A DNA stretch of 34,176 bases, taken from positions 1 to 34,176 of the forward strand of contig CAIJLJ010000086.1 of NCBI GenBank assembly GCA_903821395.1, written 5' to 3'. The notes under the pieces were generated by a model that saw only the letters and a list, made by a program, of their open reading frames with translations, searched no databases and was not told the origin of the DNA. How positions within the stretch are numbered: position 1 is the first letter of the stretch; every line of letters starts with the position of its first letter. Origin of the DNA: an uncultured Solirubrobacterales bacterium (GTDB lineage: Bacteria; Actinomycetota; Thermoleophilia; Solirubrobacterales; Solirubrobacteraceae). This document shows, in pieces, positions 1-28,820 of this stretch. The position numbers and the translations under genes are program-made.

Positions 1-1177
<1,177 letters not shown>

Positions 1178-1178
<1 letters not shown>

Positions 1179-1756
1179 TGCAGAGCGGACCAGAGCCGAC
1201 GGTGCCTGAAGAGGTGCCGTCGGAGGCCGAGCTCGAGCAAGCCGCAGCCGAAGTCGAGGCGGAGGTAATCGAAGGCGACGCCGTTACCAGCGAAGAGGCT
1301 GCAGTTGCGGCAGAGGCCGCCGTTGAAGCCGAGCCGGATTACAAGGACCAGTGGATGCGCTCGGTCGCTGAGCTCGACAACTTCCGCAAGCGGACGAGCC
1401 GCGACGCTGCTCAGGCTGAGCTGCGTGGAATCGCCAAGCTGGCACGCGAGCTATTGCCGGCGCTCGACAACCTTGACCGCGCAATCAAGGCTGCGGAGGC
1501 GCACCCGGAGAGCGCCAATCCAGAGCTGATCGGCGGCATCGAGCTCGTGCAGCAGGAGCTGCTCGCGGCATTCAGCCGTGTTGGCATCAGCCGCGACACT
1601 GCGCTCGGTGAGGCGTTCAACCCGCACCAGCATGAGGCCGTTGCCCAGCAGCAGGCCGAAGGGCAGGCGGCGGGCACCGTGATTGAGGTTTACGAACACG
1701 GCTATCTGCTCGGCGACGAGGTTCTGCGCGCAGCGAAGGTCGTCGTAGCCGCTTAA
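1178..1756 (+). CDS. grpE: Nucleotide exchange factor GrpE
   Basis: GrpE releases ADP from DnaK and so resets the chaperone cycle. The 192-residue protein has a long acidic, Ala/Glu-rich N-terminus (about residues 1-50), then the coiled-coil dimerisation region with the family pattern WMRSVAELDNFRKRTSRD, and the C-terminal beta domain with AFNPHQHEAVAQQ and GYLLGDEVLRAAKVVV. Length is normal for the family. The ATG shares one base with the dnaK stop, and dnaJ follows after 10 bases, so this is the second gene seen in a dnaK-grpE-dnaJ-hspR operon. Confidence 0.98.
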
Positions 1757-1766
1757 GGCCGAAGCG

Positions 1767-2870
1767 ATGGCTCAGCCCGATCTCTACAAGGTTCTCGGTG
1801 TCGACAAGAAGTCGTCGGCCGCCGAGATCAAGAAGGCCTATCGCAAGCTAGCGCGCGAGAACCACCCGGATCAGAACCCCGGCAATGAGGCCGCCGAAGA
1901 GCGCTTCAAGCAGGTATCGGCCGCCTACGACATCCTCGGCGACCCCGAGAAGCGTAAGCAGTACGAGAGTGGCGGCATGTTCAGCGGTGGTGGCGGAGGG
2001 CCGGGTGGCGTTCCGTTTGACGCCTCGAGCTTTGGCGACATCTTCTCCAGCTTCTTCGGCGGCGATCAGCAGTCGGGTCGAGCTGGCCGGCCGCGCCCGG
2101 CGCGCGGCCGCGATCTTGAAACCGAAGTGCGGCTCAGCTTCGATCAGTCGTTGGCTGGAATTCAGGTTCCAGTAACGCTTTCGATTCCTGGAGCCTGCGG
2201 CAGCTGCCATGGCACCGGCGCCGCACCTGGAACTTCGCCGAAGGTCTGTTCGAGCTGCCAGGGCCGCGGGATTGATTCACAGGGTCAAGGGCTCTTTTCG
2301 ATTTCGCAGCCCTGCTCGCGTTGCCAAGGCAGCGGAACCATTATTGAAGATCCCTGCCGCACCTGCGGCGGCAGCGGTCAAGTTGAGAAGACAAAGCGGC
2401 TCAAGGTAAATATTCCGGCCGGTGTGAAGGAGGGCTCGCGCGTGAGGATCGCTGGTCGCGGCGAGCCCGGCAGCAACGGCGGCCCCGATGGTGACCTTTA
2501 CGTGATCACGCGCGTCGCGCCGTCCTCGATCTTCCGCCGCAAGGGCGACAACGTTGAGGTTGAGGTTCCGCTAACGGTGCCCGAGCAGCTGCTTGGGGCT
2601 GAGGTAGAGGTCCCGACGCTCGACGGGCGCAAGACTTTGCGTGTTCCACCCGGTACGCGCAGCGGCAGCGTCCAGCGGCTGCGCGGCGAAGGCCCGCCGC
2701 GGCTTGGCGCGGGCAAGAAGGAGACGCGCGGCGACATTCATTACCGCTTCGTCGTTGACGTTCCAGCGGAGTTGACTGAGGAGCAGTCCGAGCTGGTCGC
2801 GAAGCTGTCTGAGACGATGAACGGCGGCGATCCAAGAGCCAAACTTTTCAGTGGCAGTGGTGACAAGTGA
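1767..2870 (+). CDS. dnaJ: Chaperone DnaJ (Hsp40)
   Basis: Type I J-protein that delivers substrates to DnaK and stimulates its ATPase. The order is a J domain at residues 1-70 with the essential HPD motif (ENHPDQNPGN), a Gly/Phe-rich linker (about 70-110, GGGGGPGG), a zinc-finger domain beginning near residue 144 with four CxxCxGxG repeats (CGSCHGTG, CSSCQGRG, CSRCQGSG, CRTCGGSG), and the C-terminal substrate-binding domain. At 367 residues it is full length. The TGA stop overlaps the hspR start. Confidence 0.98.
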   Translation: MAQPDLYKVLGVDKKSSAAEIKKAYRKLARENHPDQNPGNEAAEERFKQVSAAYDILGDPEKRKQYESGGMFSGGGGGPGGVPFDASSFGDIFSSFFGGDQQSGRAGRPRPARGRDLETEVRLSFDQSLAGIQVPVTLSIPGACGSCHGTGAAPGTSPKVCSSCQGRGIDSQGQGLFSISQPCSRCQGSGTIIEDPCRTCGGSGQVEKTKRLKVNIPAGVKEGSRVRIAGRGEPGSNGGPDGDLYVITRVAPSSIFRRKGDNVEVEVPLTVPEQLLGAEVEVPTLDGRKTLRVPPGTRSGSVQRLRGEGPPRLGAGKKETRGDIHYRFVVDVPAELTEEQSELVAKLSETMNGGDPRAKLFSGSGDK

Positions 2871-3313
2871 TGACGACGCGCAGAACCACAACTCGGATCA
2901 CGGTTGACTCCGGCCGAGGCGTTTTCATGATCTCGGTTGCCGCCGAGCTGGCCGAGATGCATCCCCAGACTTTGCGGATGTATGAGCAGCGCGGTTTGAT
3001 CCGCCCGCAGCGCTCGCCGAAGGGGACGCGGCTCTATTCGCAGACCGATGTTGATCGGCTGCGGCGGATTCAAGAGATGACGACCGAGCTCGGCCTCAAT
3101 CTCGCCGGCGTTGAGCGTGTGCTCGCGCTCGAAGAGCAACTTGAAGCAACGCGCCGTCGCCTTGAGCAGCTCGAGCAGCAAAGCAGCCAGGTGCGCGCCG
3201 AGATGGAGGCCGAGTTGGAGACCGCGCGGCGAACTTTGCGCGGCGAACTCGTGCCGGTCCGTCAGAGCTCAACCGAAGTTGTTCGAGCAGCCGATTTTCG
3301 CCGCCGTCGCTGA
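2870..3313 (+). CDS. hspR: Heat-shock repressor HspR (MerR family)
   Basis: HspR is the MerR-type repressor of the dnaK operon and often of clpB in actinobacteria; it binds HAIR inverted repeats and uses DnaK as co-repressor. The 147-residue protein has a short basic N-terminus, the winged-helix DNA-binding core (about residues 20-85; ISVAAELAEMHPQTLRMYEQ and GLIRPQRSPKGTRLYSQTDVD), and a coiled coil (LEEQLEATRRRLEQLEQQ). The ATG at 2870 overlaps the dnaJ TGA; a GTG one codon upstream (2867) is also possible. Its likely operator, a HAIR-like inverted repeat, lies just downstream in front of clpB. HspR autoregulation through the dnaK promoter is expected from the family but is outside the window. 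Confidence 0.95.
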   Translation: MTTRRTTTRITVDSGRGVFMISVAAELAEMHPQTLRMYEQRGLIRPQRSPKGTRLYSQTDVDRLRRIQEMTTELGLNLAGVERVLALEEQLEATRRRLEQLEQQSSQVRAEMEAELETARRTLRGELVPVRQSSTEVVRAADFRRRR

Positions 3314-3333: not shown

Positions 3334-3361
3334 TTGCAATAAGATCTAAGTCTGCTAGACT
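3334..3361 (+). promoter_or_regulatory. Candidate clpB promoter
   Basis: TTGCAA (3334-3339) and TAGACT (3356-3361) are separated by 16 bases and resemble -35 and -10 hexamers. The -10-like hexamer ends nine bases before the clpB ATG, so the transcript would have almost no leader. No Shine-Dalgarno is visible before the ATG. The -10 hexamer lies in the right half of the inverted repeat at 3342-3368, so a bound repressor would block the promoter. Confidence 0.55.
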
Positions 3362-3368
3362 TAGATCT
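3342..3368. promoter_or_regulatory. HAIR-like operator: perfect 12-bp inverted repeat
   Basis: AGATCTAAGTCT (3342-3353) and AGACTTAGATCT (3357-3368) are exact reverse complements separated by GCT. The HspR consensus (HAIR) is CTTGAGT-N7-ACTCAAG; here the inner AGT-N7-ACT core and its seven-base spacing are kept, while the outer positions differ. It sits directly after hspR and immediately before clpB, overlapping the candidate -10. HspR control of clpB is an inference from the family and the position. Confidence 0.75.
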
Positions 3369-3370
3369 GT

Positions 3371-5938
3371 ATGAATGCCGACCGTTTTACCGTGAAAAGT
3401 CAAGAGGCGCTTCAGGCCGCCCTGTCGCTCGCTGCCCGCAATCGCAACCCGCAAGCGCTACCGCCACACCTGCTCAGCGCGCTGCTCGAGCAGGAGGGTG
3501 GAATCGTTACCCCGGTGCTGCGAAACGCAGGCATCGATGACGTCGCCGTGCGCCAAGCCAACAATGCTGCAATCGAGGCGTTGCCGACACTCGCCGAAGG
3601 CGGCGAGGCGTCGCAGCCGGGGAGCGAACTACTCCAGGCGCTGCAGCGCGCCGAGACGTTGATGACCGAGATGAACGACGAGTACGTCTCAACCGAGCAC
3701 CTGCTGCTGGCCTTGGCCGCGCAGGACGGCGCCGCCGGTGATGCACTACGCGCCGCAGGAGCATCACCCGAAGTGCTCAAAGACGCGATCGCGAAGGTTC
3801 GCGGTCCCCACCGGGTGACCGATCAAAACGCTGAGGACCAGTACCAAGCTTTGGAGAAGTACGGAGTCGACCTGACCGCGCTCGCGGCAGATGGTGAGCT
3901 AGATCCGGTGATCGGCCGCGACGACGAGATTCGCCGCGTAATCCAAGTGCTCTCGCGCCGAAGGAAGAACAACCCGGTTCTAATCGGCGAGCCAGGGGTA
4001 GGGAAGACGGCGATCGTCGAGGGCCTAGCCCAGCGGATCGTCTCCGGCGACATCCCTGAGTCGCTTCGTGACCGCCGCCTGATCGCGCTCGACATTGGCG
4101 GCATGATCGCCGGTGCCAAGTACCGCGGCGAGTTTGAGGAACGGCTCAAGTCGGTGCTGAAAGAGATCACCGAGGCCAAGGGCCAGATCATCGTCTTCAT
4201 TGACGAGCTTCACACAATCGTCGGCGCCGGCGCCGCGGAGGGGGCGGTTGACGCCGCCAACCTACTCAAGCCGATGCTGGCCCGCGGCGAGCTGCGCGCT
4301 GTCGGTGCGACGACGCTCGACGAGTACCGCAAACACATTGAGAAGGACCCAGCGTTGGAGCGTCGCTTTCAGCCGGTCGTCGTCGATGAACCCTCGGTTG
4401 AGGACACGATTGCGATCCTGCGCGGACTAAGCGAGCGCTACGAGGTTCATCACAACGTCGCGATTAAAGACTCGGCGCTGATCGCCGCCGCCACGCTCTC
4501 CGACCGCTACATCGCCGACCGCTTCCTACCCGATAAGGCGATCGACCTAATCGACGAAGCGGCCTCGCGGGTGCGGATCGAGATCGATTCGCTCCCCGAG
4601 GAGATCGACGAAGTCGAGCGCCGCGTGCTGCAGCTGCAGATCGAGCGCACCTCGCTAGAGAAGGAAAGCGAGTCAGACAAGGCAACCGCCGAGCGGCTTG
4701 AAGTGATCGACCGCGAACTCGCCGAGCTGCAGGAGAAGGCGGCCGGAATGAAGGCCGAATGGCAGACCGAGAAGGATCGCGTCGCCGGAGTCAGCGATGT
4801 TCGTCGTCGGCTCGACGAGGCCCACCGTGAACTTGAGCGCGTCACCCGCGAAGGCAACCTTGAGCGCGCCGCGGAGCTGCGCCACGGTGAGATTCCTGAT
4901 CTTGAGCAGCAGATGGAAGAGGACATCCAGAGTGAGGATGAGCCGCAGCCAACTCGATTCTTCAAGGAGCACGTCGGCAGCGAGGACGTCGCCGAGATCG
5001 TCGCCCGCTGGACCGGCATTCCGGTCACCCGGATTGAAGAGACCGAAACGAACAAGCTCGTCTTCCTTGAGGATCGCCTGCACGAGCGCGTGATCGGCCA
5101 GGACGAAGCCGTCTCGGCTGTCGCCAGCGCGTTGCGCCGCTCGCGCGCCGGGCTCCAAGATCCAGATCGCCCAATCGGCTCGTTCCTTTTCCTCGGCCCG
5201 ACCGGCGTCGGCAAGACGGAGCTTGCCCGCGCGCTCGCCGAGCTGATGTTCGACAGCCAGGACGCGATGATCCGCATCGACATGTCGGAGTACATGGAGA
5301 AGCACTCCGTCTCGCGCCTCGTCGGAGCACCTCCAGGCTACGTCGGCTATGACGAGGGCGGCCAGCTGACCGAAGCGGTCCGTCGCCGCCCCTATTCGGT
5401 GGTGCTGCTCGACGAGCTCGAGAAGGCACACCCGGACGTATTCAATTCTCTGCTGCAGGTCCTTGACGACGGTCGCCTGACCGACGGTCAGGGCCGCACA
5501 GTCGACTTCAAGAACACGATCTTGATCATGACCTCCAACGTCGGCTCGGGCAGCGGCGACTACGAGGCCGCGGTGAAGGCGACCTTTAAGCCGGAGTTCA
5601 TCAACCGCCTTGACGACATAGTTGAGTTCGATTCGCTAACCCGCGAACAGATCGGCGAGATCGTCACGATCCAGGTCGCGCGGCTCGTCGCCCGCGTCAA
5701 TGATCGCGGCCTTGACGTTGAGCTGAGCGACTCCGCGGTCGAGCTGATCGGCAACCTTGGCTACGACCCGACCTACGGTGCGCGGCCGCTCAAGCGCGTG
5801 ATCCAAAAGAAGCTGATCGACCCACTGGCGATCGGGATTCTCGACGGCAGCTTCAGCGAAGGTGATCTCGTCAGGGTTGACAACAAGGACGGCGAACTTG
5901 TCCTTGCGGCCCAGCCTGCCAGCGTGACTGCCGCCTGA
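3371..5938 (+). CDS. clpB: Disaggregase ClpB (Hsp100)
   Basis: ClpB is a hexameric AAA+ chaperone that pulls proteins out of aggregates together with DnaK. The 855-residue protein has the N-terminal Clp domain (1-145), the first AAA+ module with Walker A GEPGVGKT (206-213) and Walker B IVFIDELH (near 277), the coiled-coil middle domain that defines ClpB (about 405-520), and the second AAA+ module with GPTGVGKT (609-616), the pore loop [19 protein letters not shown] and FINRLDD. Length matches the family. The gene is separated from hspR by 57 bases holding the inverted repeat and promoter, so it is probably its own HspR-controlled unit. The start matches the family N-terminus although no Shine-Dalgarno is present. 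Confidence 0.98.
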
Positions 5939-6257: not shown

Positions 6258-7517
6258 GTGAAGATCCTCGTCGTCGGCAGCGGAGGCAGGGAGCACGCGA
6301 TCGTCCGCGCCCTGCTGCGCTCCGCGCTTACGACTGAGCTGCTCTGCGCGCCAGGCAACCCGGGCATCGCTGCTGACGCTGAATGTGTGCCGGTAGCCGC
6401 TGACGCGATCGATCAGCTCGTCGAGCTGGCTGCTGAGCGGCAGCTCGATCTTGTTGTCGTAGGGCCCGAGGCGCCGCTCGTAGGCGGGCTTGTTGACGCG
6501 CTCACGGGCGCCGGCATACCTGCCTTCGGCCCGGTCGCGGCCGCAGCGCGGCTCGAGGGTTCGAAGGCTTACGCAAAAGAGGTGATGGAGGCCGCTGGCG
6601 TGCCGACCGGCGGCTGGGAGACAGTCGAAAGCGTTGAGGATGGTTTGGCGGCGGTGCGCAGCTACCCGACCGTGATCAAGTTCGACGGGCTGGCGGCAGG
6701 CAAGGGCGTAGTGATCGCCGCCGATGAGGCCGCTGCCCGCGCTGCGCTCGAAGAGTTCCTCGTCGAGCGGCGTTTCGGCGAAGGCCAAGTCGTCGTTGAA
6801 GAGTTCCTCGAAGGCGAAGAACTCTCGCTGCTGGCGCTTTGCGACGGTGAACGCGCCGTGCCGATGGCACCGGCGCAGGATTACAAACGGATCTTCGACG
6901 GCGACCTCGGCCCCAACACCGGTGGAATGGGGTCCTACTGCCCGGTCCCGGGGATCGACGCAGCCCGCGTCGCCGAGCTGTCAGCGCTAGTCCACCAGCC
7001 GATCGTTGATTACTTCGCCGCCGCCGGCACGCCCTTCCATGGCGTTCTCTACGCCGGCCTGATGATGACGGCCGACGGGCCGAAGGTGCTCGAGTACAAC
7101 ACGCGCTTCGGTGATCCCGAGACGCAGGCCGTTTTGCCGCGGCTTCGCAGCGACCTCGCTGAGCTGCTGCTAGCTGGTAGCAAGCACGGTGGCCTCGCGG
7201 GTCGCGAGCTCGAATGGGATCCGCGCTGGGCCGTGACGGTGGTGCTCGCAAGCGCCGGTTATCCAGACGCGCCGCGCCTCGGCGACGTGATCAGCGGACT
7301 TGAGAAGATCACCGACCCGCTCGAGCTGACCTGCGCTGGAGTTGCCGATGGAGACGGCAATCTCGTCACTGCGGGGGGCCGTGTTCTCAACGTTACGGCG
7401 CTCGGTGAAACGCCAGCCTCGGCCCGGGCTGCTGCTTACGCTGGGGTAGAATTGGTTGACTTCACCGGTAAACAAACGCGAACCGACATCGCACTACGAG
7501 CTGAGGGGGCAAGCTAG
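6258..7517 (+). CDS. purD: Phosphoribosylamine-glycine ligase (GARS)
   Basis: PurD joins glycine to 5-phosphoribosylamine with ATP, the second step of IMP synthesis. The 419-residue ATP-grasp protein begins at GTG with VKILVVGSGGREHAI, the characteristic N-terminus. It continues with VVVGPEAPLVGGLVDAL, the ATP-grasp region IKFDGLAAGKGV, EEFLEGEELSLLALCDG, and the catalytic loop DGDLGPNTGGMGSY followed by EYNTRFGDPETQ. The open frame extends upstream over the GYD gene, but the GTG after the GYD stop gives the family N-terminus. purE starts directly after the stop with no gap. Confidence 0.97.
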   Translation: MKILVVGSGGREHAIVRALLRSALTTELLCAPGNPGIAADAECVPVAADAIDQLVELAAERQLDLVVVGPEAPLVGGLVDALTGAGIPAFGPVAAAARLEGSKAYAKEVMEAAGVPTGGWETVESVEDGLAAVRSYPTVIKFDGLAAGKGVVIAADEAAARAALEEFLVERRFGEGQVVVEEFLEGEELSLLALCDGERAVPMAPAQDYKRIFDGDLGPNTGGMGSYCPVPGIDAARVAELSALVHQPIVDYFAAAGTPFHGVLYAGLMMTADGPKVLEYNTRFGDPETQAVLPRLRSDLAELLLAGSKHGGLAGRELEWDPRWAVTVVLASAGYPDAPRLGDVISGLEKITDPLELTCAGVADGDGNLVTAGGRVLNVTALGETPASARAAAYAGVELVDFTGKQTRTDIALRAEGAS

Positions 7518-27684: not shown

Positions 27685-28779
27685 ATGACCGACCTACTCG
27701 TTCGCCGAGACAGTCTTGAAACCGTCAAGTTCGCTGACGGCGCGAGTCCCGAGGCAACCGCGCTTGCTCCAGGAGAGGTGCTTCTGCGCGTTGACGCGTT
27801 CAGCTTTACCGCCAACAACATCAGCTACGCAATTTTCGGCGACTTCATGAACTATTGGAACTTCTTCCCCGCCGAGGACGGCTGGGGCCGTGTCCCGGTC
27901 TGGGGCTTCGCTGACGTAGCTGCCTCAGAGTGTGAGGGAGTTGAGCTTGGGCAACGCTTCTACGGCTACCTGCCAATGTCGAGCTACCTCGTTGTAACGC
28001 CGGGCAACATTACGGCGGCTGGCTTTTCGGATGTCGCTGAACATCGCAAGGAACTCCACGCGGTCTACAACAGCTACCAGCTGACCGCGACCGACCCAAG
28101 CTACGACGATGCGCTTGAAGCCGAGATTATGCTGCTGCGCCCGCTCTTCTCGACCTCATTCCTAATCGACGATTTCTTTCAGGACAACGACTGGTTCGGC
28201 GCAGAGGCTGTCGTTATGTCGAGCGCCTCCAGCAAGACCGCGTACGGCACCGCATTCATGCTCGCTAAGCGTGTCGGCGTGAACGTGGTTGGCCTCACGG
28301 CAGCGGGGAACGTTGAGTTCGTCGAGCGACTGGGCCTCTACGACCAAGTTCTCTCTTACGAAGAGATCGGCGAGCTTGATGCAGATGTGCCGATGGCCTA
28401 CATCGATTTCTCCGGCGACGCCGCGGTGCGCGCGGCGATTCACAACCAGCTTGGTGACTCGCTGGTCTTTGATTCTGCCGTCGGCGCAACGCACATCGGT
28501 GCGCTTGGCGGAGCCGACGGGCTGCCAGGGCCAGCGCCGGTGCTTTTCTTCGCGCCAGCTCAGGCCAAGAAACGCTCCGATGAATGGGGTACCGAGGGGC
28601 TAATCGAGCGGATCGCAGGTTCGCTCGACGAGTTCATCGCGCTCGTCGTCGAACCGGCAAACAGACTTATGAAGATCGAACACAGCTCAGGCGAAGCGGC
28701 CGTGGAGCAGGTTTACCTCGACGTGTTGGCCGGCCGGGCCGCGCCCGACGCTGGCAGCATTCTGTCGCTGCCAGCGTAG
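27685..28779 (+). CDS. DUF2855 family protein
   Basis: A 364-residue protein of the DUF2855 family, which resembles medium-chain reductases without clear zinc ligands. Visible are LLRVDAFSFTANNISYAIFGDFMNYWNFFP at the N-terminus, WGFADVAASECEGVELGQRFYGYLPMSSYLVV, and a Rossmann-like part AVVMSSASSKTAYGTAFMLAKR and VVGLTAAGNVEFVERLGLYDQVLSYEEI. The activity is not known. The ATG directly follows TAGGAG, and GACAAT (27673-27678) sits six bases upstream, so translation may be leaderless or from a too-close Shine-Dalgarno. The last codons form a perfect 11-bp hairpin. Confidence 0.88.
   Translation: MTDLLVRRDSLETVKFADGASPEATALAPGEVLLRVDAFSFTANNISYAIFGDFMNYWNFFPAEDGWGRVPVWGFADVAASECEGVELGQRFYGYLPMSSYLVVTPGNITAAGFSDVAEHRKELHAVYNSYQLTATDPSYDDALEAEIMLLRPLFSTSFLIDDFFQDNDWFGAEAVVMSSASSKTAYGTAFMLAKRVGVNVVGLTAAGNVEFVERLGLYDQVLSYEEIGELDADVPMAYIDFSGDAAVRAAIHNQLGDSLVFDSAVGATHIGALGGADGLPGPAPVLFFAPAQAKKRSDEWGTEGLIERIAGSLDEFIALVVEPANRLMKIEHSSGEAAVEQVYLDVLAGRAAPDAGSILSLPA
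28748..28777. terminator. Perfect 11-bp hairpin over the DUF2855 stop
   Basis: ACGCTGGCAGC (28748-28758) and GCTGCCAGCGT (28767-28777) pair exactly around an 8-base loop. The right arm ends on the T of the TAG stop. It lies inside the last ten codons and may act as a terminator or mRNA 3'-end structure. No T-run follows. Confidence 0.45.
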
Positions 28780-28795: not shown

Positions 28796-28820
28796 CGTTG
28801 CGCGCACTCCGCGCGCAACG
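28796..28820. terminator. Candidate bidirectional terminator between convergent genes
   Basis: CGTTGCGCGC (28796-28805) and GCGCGCAACG (28811-28820) form a perfect 10-bp stem with an ACTCC loop. It lies exactly between the convergent DUF2855 gene and the Asn/Gln-rich lipoprotein gene, 17 bases after the first and 6 bases before the last codon of the second. It lacks T-runs on both sides. Confidence 0.55.

Follow-up and report, generated by a model that had tools for sequence, protein, structure and literature searches.

Known HspR operators and the hspR-clpB intergenic repeat

The operator of the heat-shock repressor HspR in Streptomyces is the HspR-associated inverted repeat (HAIR), CTTGAGT-N7-ACTCAAG (PMC6102357, PMC7464140). 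The HspR proteins of Helicobacter pylori and Campylobacter jejuni bind imperfect HAIR-like repeats and tolerate departures from the Streptomyces sequence (PMC6102357, PMC7464140). A separate element, the controlling inverted repeat of chaperone expression (CIRCE; TTAGCACTC-N9-GAGTGCTAA), is the operator of HrcA (PMC7464140). The present analysis concerns a stretch of 34,176 bp ("the window"; positions 1-34,176 of contig CAIJLJ010000086.1, here C86) from an uncultured bacterium of the order Solirubrobacterales, class Thermoleophilia, and within it a perfect inverted repeat between the genes hspR and clpB. With a probability of roughly 0.87, this repeat is predicted to be where an HspR dimer binds to repress clpB, an operator written in a spelling typical of the class, ATCTNAGT-N7-ACTNAGAT.

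Read directly from the sequence as AGATCTAAGTCT-gct-AGACTTAGATCT, the repeat occupies 27 bp (3342-3368, no strand). Its 12-bp arms (3342-3353 and 3357-3368) pair without a mismatch around a loop at 3354-3356, and a 23-bp core, ATCTAAGT-N7-ACTTAGAT, lies at 3344-3366. The initial annotation had described a perfect 12-bp repeat at this place but carried its end to 3370, 2 bp too far; the dinucleotide gt at 3369-3370 separates it from the clpB ATG at 3371. The other described features were recovered, namely the position right after hspR (stop at 3313), the AGT-N7-ACT core (3348-3350 and 3358-3360, with half-sites inverted as in canonical HAIR) and the loss of the flanking CTTG/CAAG: the half-site is TCTAAGT, and 8 of 14 positions agree with the canonical CTTGAGT/ACTCAAG.

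Among the perfect inverted repeats of the window (loop of at most 20) this one is the longest, and dinucleotide shuffling of the 57-bp hspR-clpB intergenic region reached a 12-bp arm in 7 of 20,000 trials. Taken alone, the arm length is only a moderate argument against chance, and conservation decides. Two further perfect inverted repeats, with arms of 11 and 10 bp, lie near each other at 28748-28777 and 28796-28820.

The gene directly upstream, hspR (2867..3313, + strand), encodes a MerR-family heat-shock repressor of 147-148 amino acids, depending on the start. Membership was judged by the curated NCBIfam equivalog NF047375 (cut-off 105 bits), to which the product scores 118.2 bits; it also matches Pfam MerR_1. 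The location of an above-cut-off HspR immediately before the repeat, in a cluster with dnaK-grpE-dnaJ and clpB, argues for its being the cognate regulator.

Conservation of the site and the genes behind it

The 27-bp repeat is identical in three congeners, and in a fourth a single base near the right end is changed. The flanks vary, and the near-invariance of the element between them is consistent with operator function. In a more distant congener and in other genera, ATCTNAGT-N7-ACTNAGAT is kept, or nearly so. A search allowing one mismatch found this pattern in 87 of 121 family genomes, and a reversed control pattern gave no match in the same 121. At nearly all of 30 family loci examined, the gene downstream was clpB, lon or a zinc-finger Clp ATPase, in many cases with clpB unlinked to hspR. 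The frequency of the pattern relative to its control, together with the heat-shock genes downstream, points to HspR. The initial annotation had proposed looking upstream of dnaK in relatives as well; the variant is common to most of the class, upstream of clpB and other heat-shock genes.

The distance from site to clpB was 2-40 bp, with one at 110, and this includes genomes in which clpB lies far from hspR. In an alignment of 38 distinct clpB-proximal sites, the invariance of the specified bases is imposed by the search pattern itself; at the pattern-free positions, A/T-rich conservation was observed just outside the half-sites (-3, +23, +24), with background beyond. The gene lon (Pfam) lies directly downstream of the variant in Svornostia abyssi and another genome, and the Clp-type AAA ATPase, recognized from its AAA match and from sequence reading, carries an N-terminal CxxC zinc-finger-like stretch. 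Outside the class, the variant precedes hsp20 in Collinsella, an uncultured Coriobacteriaceae and Acidimicrobiia, and groES in Parvibacter (Pfam hsp20 and Cpn10). The genes behind the variant sites form the predicted list of an HspR regulon.

Upstream of groES in Parvibacter caecicola (L209, ~6081), the variant operator and a CIRCE-like repeat, TTAGCACTCATGTTACGTGAGTGCTAG, stand in succession, which suggests dual control by HspR and HrcA. A public metagenome-assembled genome (MAG), CAMCVN010000034.1 (L218), labelled Bifidobacterium breve, contains the dnaK-grpE-dnaJ-hspR-clpB operon of the source genus at 88-98% protein identity, and the label is very probably wrong. Of the Prochlorococcus matches in the collection scan, the two examined lie in the coding sequence of a helicase and were not taken as operators.

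The dnaK promoter of the source genome

The 5' end of dnaK was located on contig C156 of the same assembly, where the promoter region carries AAAGATCTGCTACACTCACACTAAGATTTTG (core C156:13319-13341). This site has the ATCT-N15-AGAT frame of the clpB type in degenerate form, ATCTgctacactcacACTAAGAT. Its right half, ACTAAGAT, is intact, and its left half gives way to GCTA at the position of the predicted -10, TACACT. The shared frame and intact right half lend further support to an HspR operator at clpB. The initial annotation had named a dnaK region with a standard HAIR and without the variant as the outcome that would speak against it. The promoter, read directly, can be written as ATCTGCTACACTCACACTAAGAT and contains no canonical HAIR, so the dnaK region does not contradict the proposal. 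Across the source genome, canonical HAIR gave scattered matches with 2-3 mismatches only, none of them on C86.

The second-best match to the variant, TCAAAGTCTGCGCGACTTTGA at C126:5168, has a symmetric look; it lies within a short open reading frame (ORF) with no heat-shock gene adjoining, and was taken as chance. In the source assembly (94% complete), no match was found to hsp20, in a search that did match in control genomes, or to lon, in a search made without a positive control. The HspR regulon of the source may be limited to the dnaK operon and clpB.

Two operator spellings and the HspR protein

In families f1-f4 of the order, the region upstream of dnaK nearly always contains ATCT....ACTNAGAT, the same form as in the source. 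A survey of the phylum added sixty further dnaK loci beyond the order, and the right half-site occurred in two spellings. ACTCAAG, the HAIR spelling, was found in families f30, f35, f39, f33, f19, f32 and others, and ACTNAGAT in most families of the source class as well as in f17, f23, f24, f29, f31, f45 and f51. One spelling turns into the other when the outer dinucleotide is exchanged (CT to TC, AG to GA), and the N7 spacing is unchanged. The left half-site of dnaK doubles as the -35 TTGACA in many families. A Pontimonas sp. (Microbacteriaceae MAG, L158, ~6690-6790) has three successive operator-like sites at dnaK, namely ATCTGAGTCACACCGACTCAGAT, one overlapping TTGACA, and TTGAGTCACACCGACTCAGATT, in mixed spellings.

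The initial annotation had regarded the repeat as a variant HAIR and suggested that HspR of this lineage may read a shifted sequence. The first part is supported by the dnaK promoter and the class-wide spread. The site is respelled rather than shifted: the N7 geometry and the T-N-AGT core are retained, the outer CT becomes TC, and one A/T base pair is added on the outside. Nor is the site confined to the lineage.

The two spellings were compared with the HspR protein, its residues numbered from codon 2870-2872. Met occupied position 20 in 89 of the 91 genomes that have the AGAT spelling, against Val, Ile or Leu in all 19 with HAIR (Met in none); the two exceptions (f21 and f54) rest on weak site calls. 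At residue 55, the AGAT genomes have Leu (or Met, rarely Arg) and the HAIR genomes Arg. The alignment places residue 20 at the start of helix 1 and residue 55 in the wing. For heavy-metal MerR proteins, the protein positions correlated with DNA positions map to the recognition helix, to helix 1 and to the first wing (PMC5045206). That the spellings track these two residues favours HspR as the protein concerned. A spelling shared by a whole class and distinct from HAIR suggests that the DNA code of the repressor changed during evolution. On the DnaK tree, at least 4 changes are required to explain the spelling and 3 to explain Met20; with so few independent switches, the link is suggestive and correlative, not significant. 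A tentative scheme, to which we would give somewhat less than even odds, holds that actinobacterial HspR reads its operators in two codes, HAIR with CT outside and AGAT with TC outside, set by a few winged-helix residues, chiefly Met versus Val/Ile/Leu at position 20 and Leu versus Arg at position 55, with a few switches between the codes and the operator moving between -35 and -10.

Family f16 represents the converse case. None of its 10 genomes (L365-L374) had an operator half-site upstream of dnaK. These small genomes (1.3-2.1 Mb) yielded weak MerR matches only, the best HspR match lying far below the NF047375 cut-off, and the family seems to be without HspR. The joint absence of half-sites and of an adequate HspR match is a further reason to assign the site to this protein.

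The clpB promoter and gene context

The genes from the start of the window, all on the + strand, are dnaK (3' part, 1..1178; the contig begins inside the gene, whose 5' end and operator are those on C156), grpE (1178..1756, from its ORF and operon position), dnaJ (1767..2870, from profile matches), hspR and clpB. The grouping of hspR with dnaK-grpE-dnaJ is found throughout the class. The target gene, clpB (3371..5938), encodes a disaggregase (TIGR03346, 1287 bits).

The predicted clpB promoter consists of a -35 TTGCAA (3334..3339, +), a 16-bp spacer and a -10 TAGACT (3356..3361, +) within the operator. TTG[CT]AA is kept in close congeners, and CTA[GC]ACT recurs at the same place in the very-short-leader clpB promoters of the source genus and other genera. 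As a promoter the pair is plausible, and it is kept in congeners. Nine base pairs separate the -10 from the ATG, which has no Shine-Dalgarno sequence in front; the clpB mRNA is therefore probably leaderless. Where other genera have a longer clpB leader, it is the left end of the operator that a -10-like element (TAAAAT, TATGAT) overlaps, and operator and -10 seem to stay overlapped though the promoter register moves. The earlier placement of the repeat over the clpB -10 agrees with the congener-conserved TAGACT; the consensus promoter scanner, however, did not call it.

Alternative explanations

The repeat might be the operator of another regulator, such as another MerR protein, that stands beside hspR by accident. 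The genome does encode a few more MerR-type proteins (four matches to the HspR query). However, the geometry is that of HAIR and of MerR sites, the site occurs at the classic targets of HspR, dnaK-hspR and clpB, it is missing from the dnaK promoters of f16, and it bears no likeness to CIRCE, which at the Parvibacter groES forms an element of its own next to the variant. We consider this explanation improbable.

Less probable still is a function in RNA, as a terminator or attenuator hairpin after hspR or as a thermosensor at the start of clpB. A transcript could indeed fold into a hairpin of 12 bp (region -23 kcal/mol, z -3.4), but no T run follows the repeat, no terminator was called on the + strand, and the element is retained where clpB is unlinked to hspR; the terminator or hairpin reading was rejected. 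Moreover, the dnaK copies are poor palindromes, yet keep the half-site bases, and from the predicted start site the clpB promoter would hardly transcribe the repeat. Finally, a chance palindrome, although the longest arms in three window-wide shuffles were 10-13 bp, can be dismissed in view of the conservation across genera, the empty control and the heat-shock genes downstream.

Several observations weigh against the assignment to HspR. The predicted clpB -35 and -10 scored below the scanner threshold, and the left half of the source dnaK site is degenerate, with congeners agreeing at 11 of 14 consensus positions. On the DnaK tree, the covariation of HspR and operator rests on 2-4 independent pairs, too few to give a formal test power. 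Mixed spellings occur with Met20 in f5 (ACTCATRT) and in parts of f8 (ACTCAACT), f50 combines a left half ATCTGAGT and a right half GCTCAACC with Ile20, and the Pontimonas dnaK carries the variant spelling.

Proposed mechanism

DnaK serves as the co-repressor of HspR in Streptomyces and mycobacteria. For an HspR operator at clpB, the following course may be envisaged. One HspR dimer would bind the half-site (A)ATCTNAGT and its mirror image 7 bp away, in HAIR geometry, covering the -10 TAGACT and the start site, which would lie at, or just before, the ATG, and RNA polymerase would be kept off. HspR would likewise occupy the degenerate copy over the dnaK -10, such that the dnaK-grpE-dnaJ-hspR operon would be autoregulated. 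By analogy with the studied HspR systems, DnaK is the probable co-repressor; its titration by unfolded protein would release HspR and allow the chaperones to be made.

Comparison with known systems

A literature search on HspR in Solirubrobacter, Rubrobacter, Coriobacteriia or Acidimicrobiia, which did not extend to subscription papers or to regulon databases such as RegPrecise, found no description of the variant. The operator is ordinary in kind, variant in sequence, lineage-wide and useful. Searches for HspR targets that use the Streptomyces HAIR would miss it, and hence the heat-shock regulon, in Solirubrobacterales, and probably also in Coriobacteriia, Acidimicrobiia and others; the pattern ATCTNAGT-N7-ACTNAGAT is usable now for regulon annotation. 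The paired differences in regulator and operator make a compact example, open to direct test, of how a repressor changes in concert with its sites.

Like the Streptomyces HAIR, the variant comprises two inverted half-sites 7 bp apart with the core T-N-AGT/ACT-N-A, and it precedes dnaK and clpB in genomes whose dnaK operon includes hspR. Unlike HAIR, it has an outer TC rather than CT (GA rather than AG), a free fourth base and a conserved A/T outside. CIRCE is likewise an inverted repeat that controls chaperone genes, with a different sequence and spacing. The sites of H. pylori and C. jejuni share with the variant a departure from the Streptomyces sequence; in C. jejuni, however, the outer CTT is most conserved, exactly where the variant departs, and the sites in both species may be multiple and far upstream of the promoter. 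The variant sits on the predicted -10, whereas in many other actinobacterial dnaK promoters surveyed the operator lies on the TTGACA -35.
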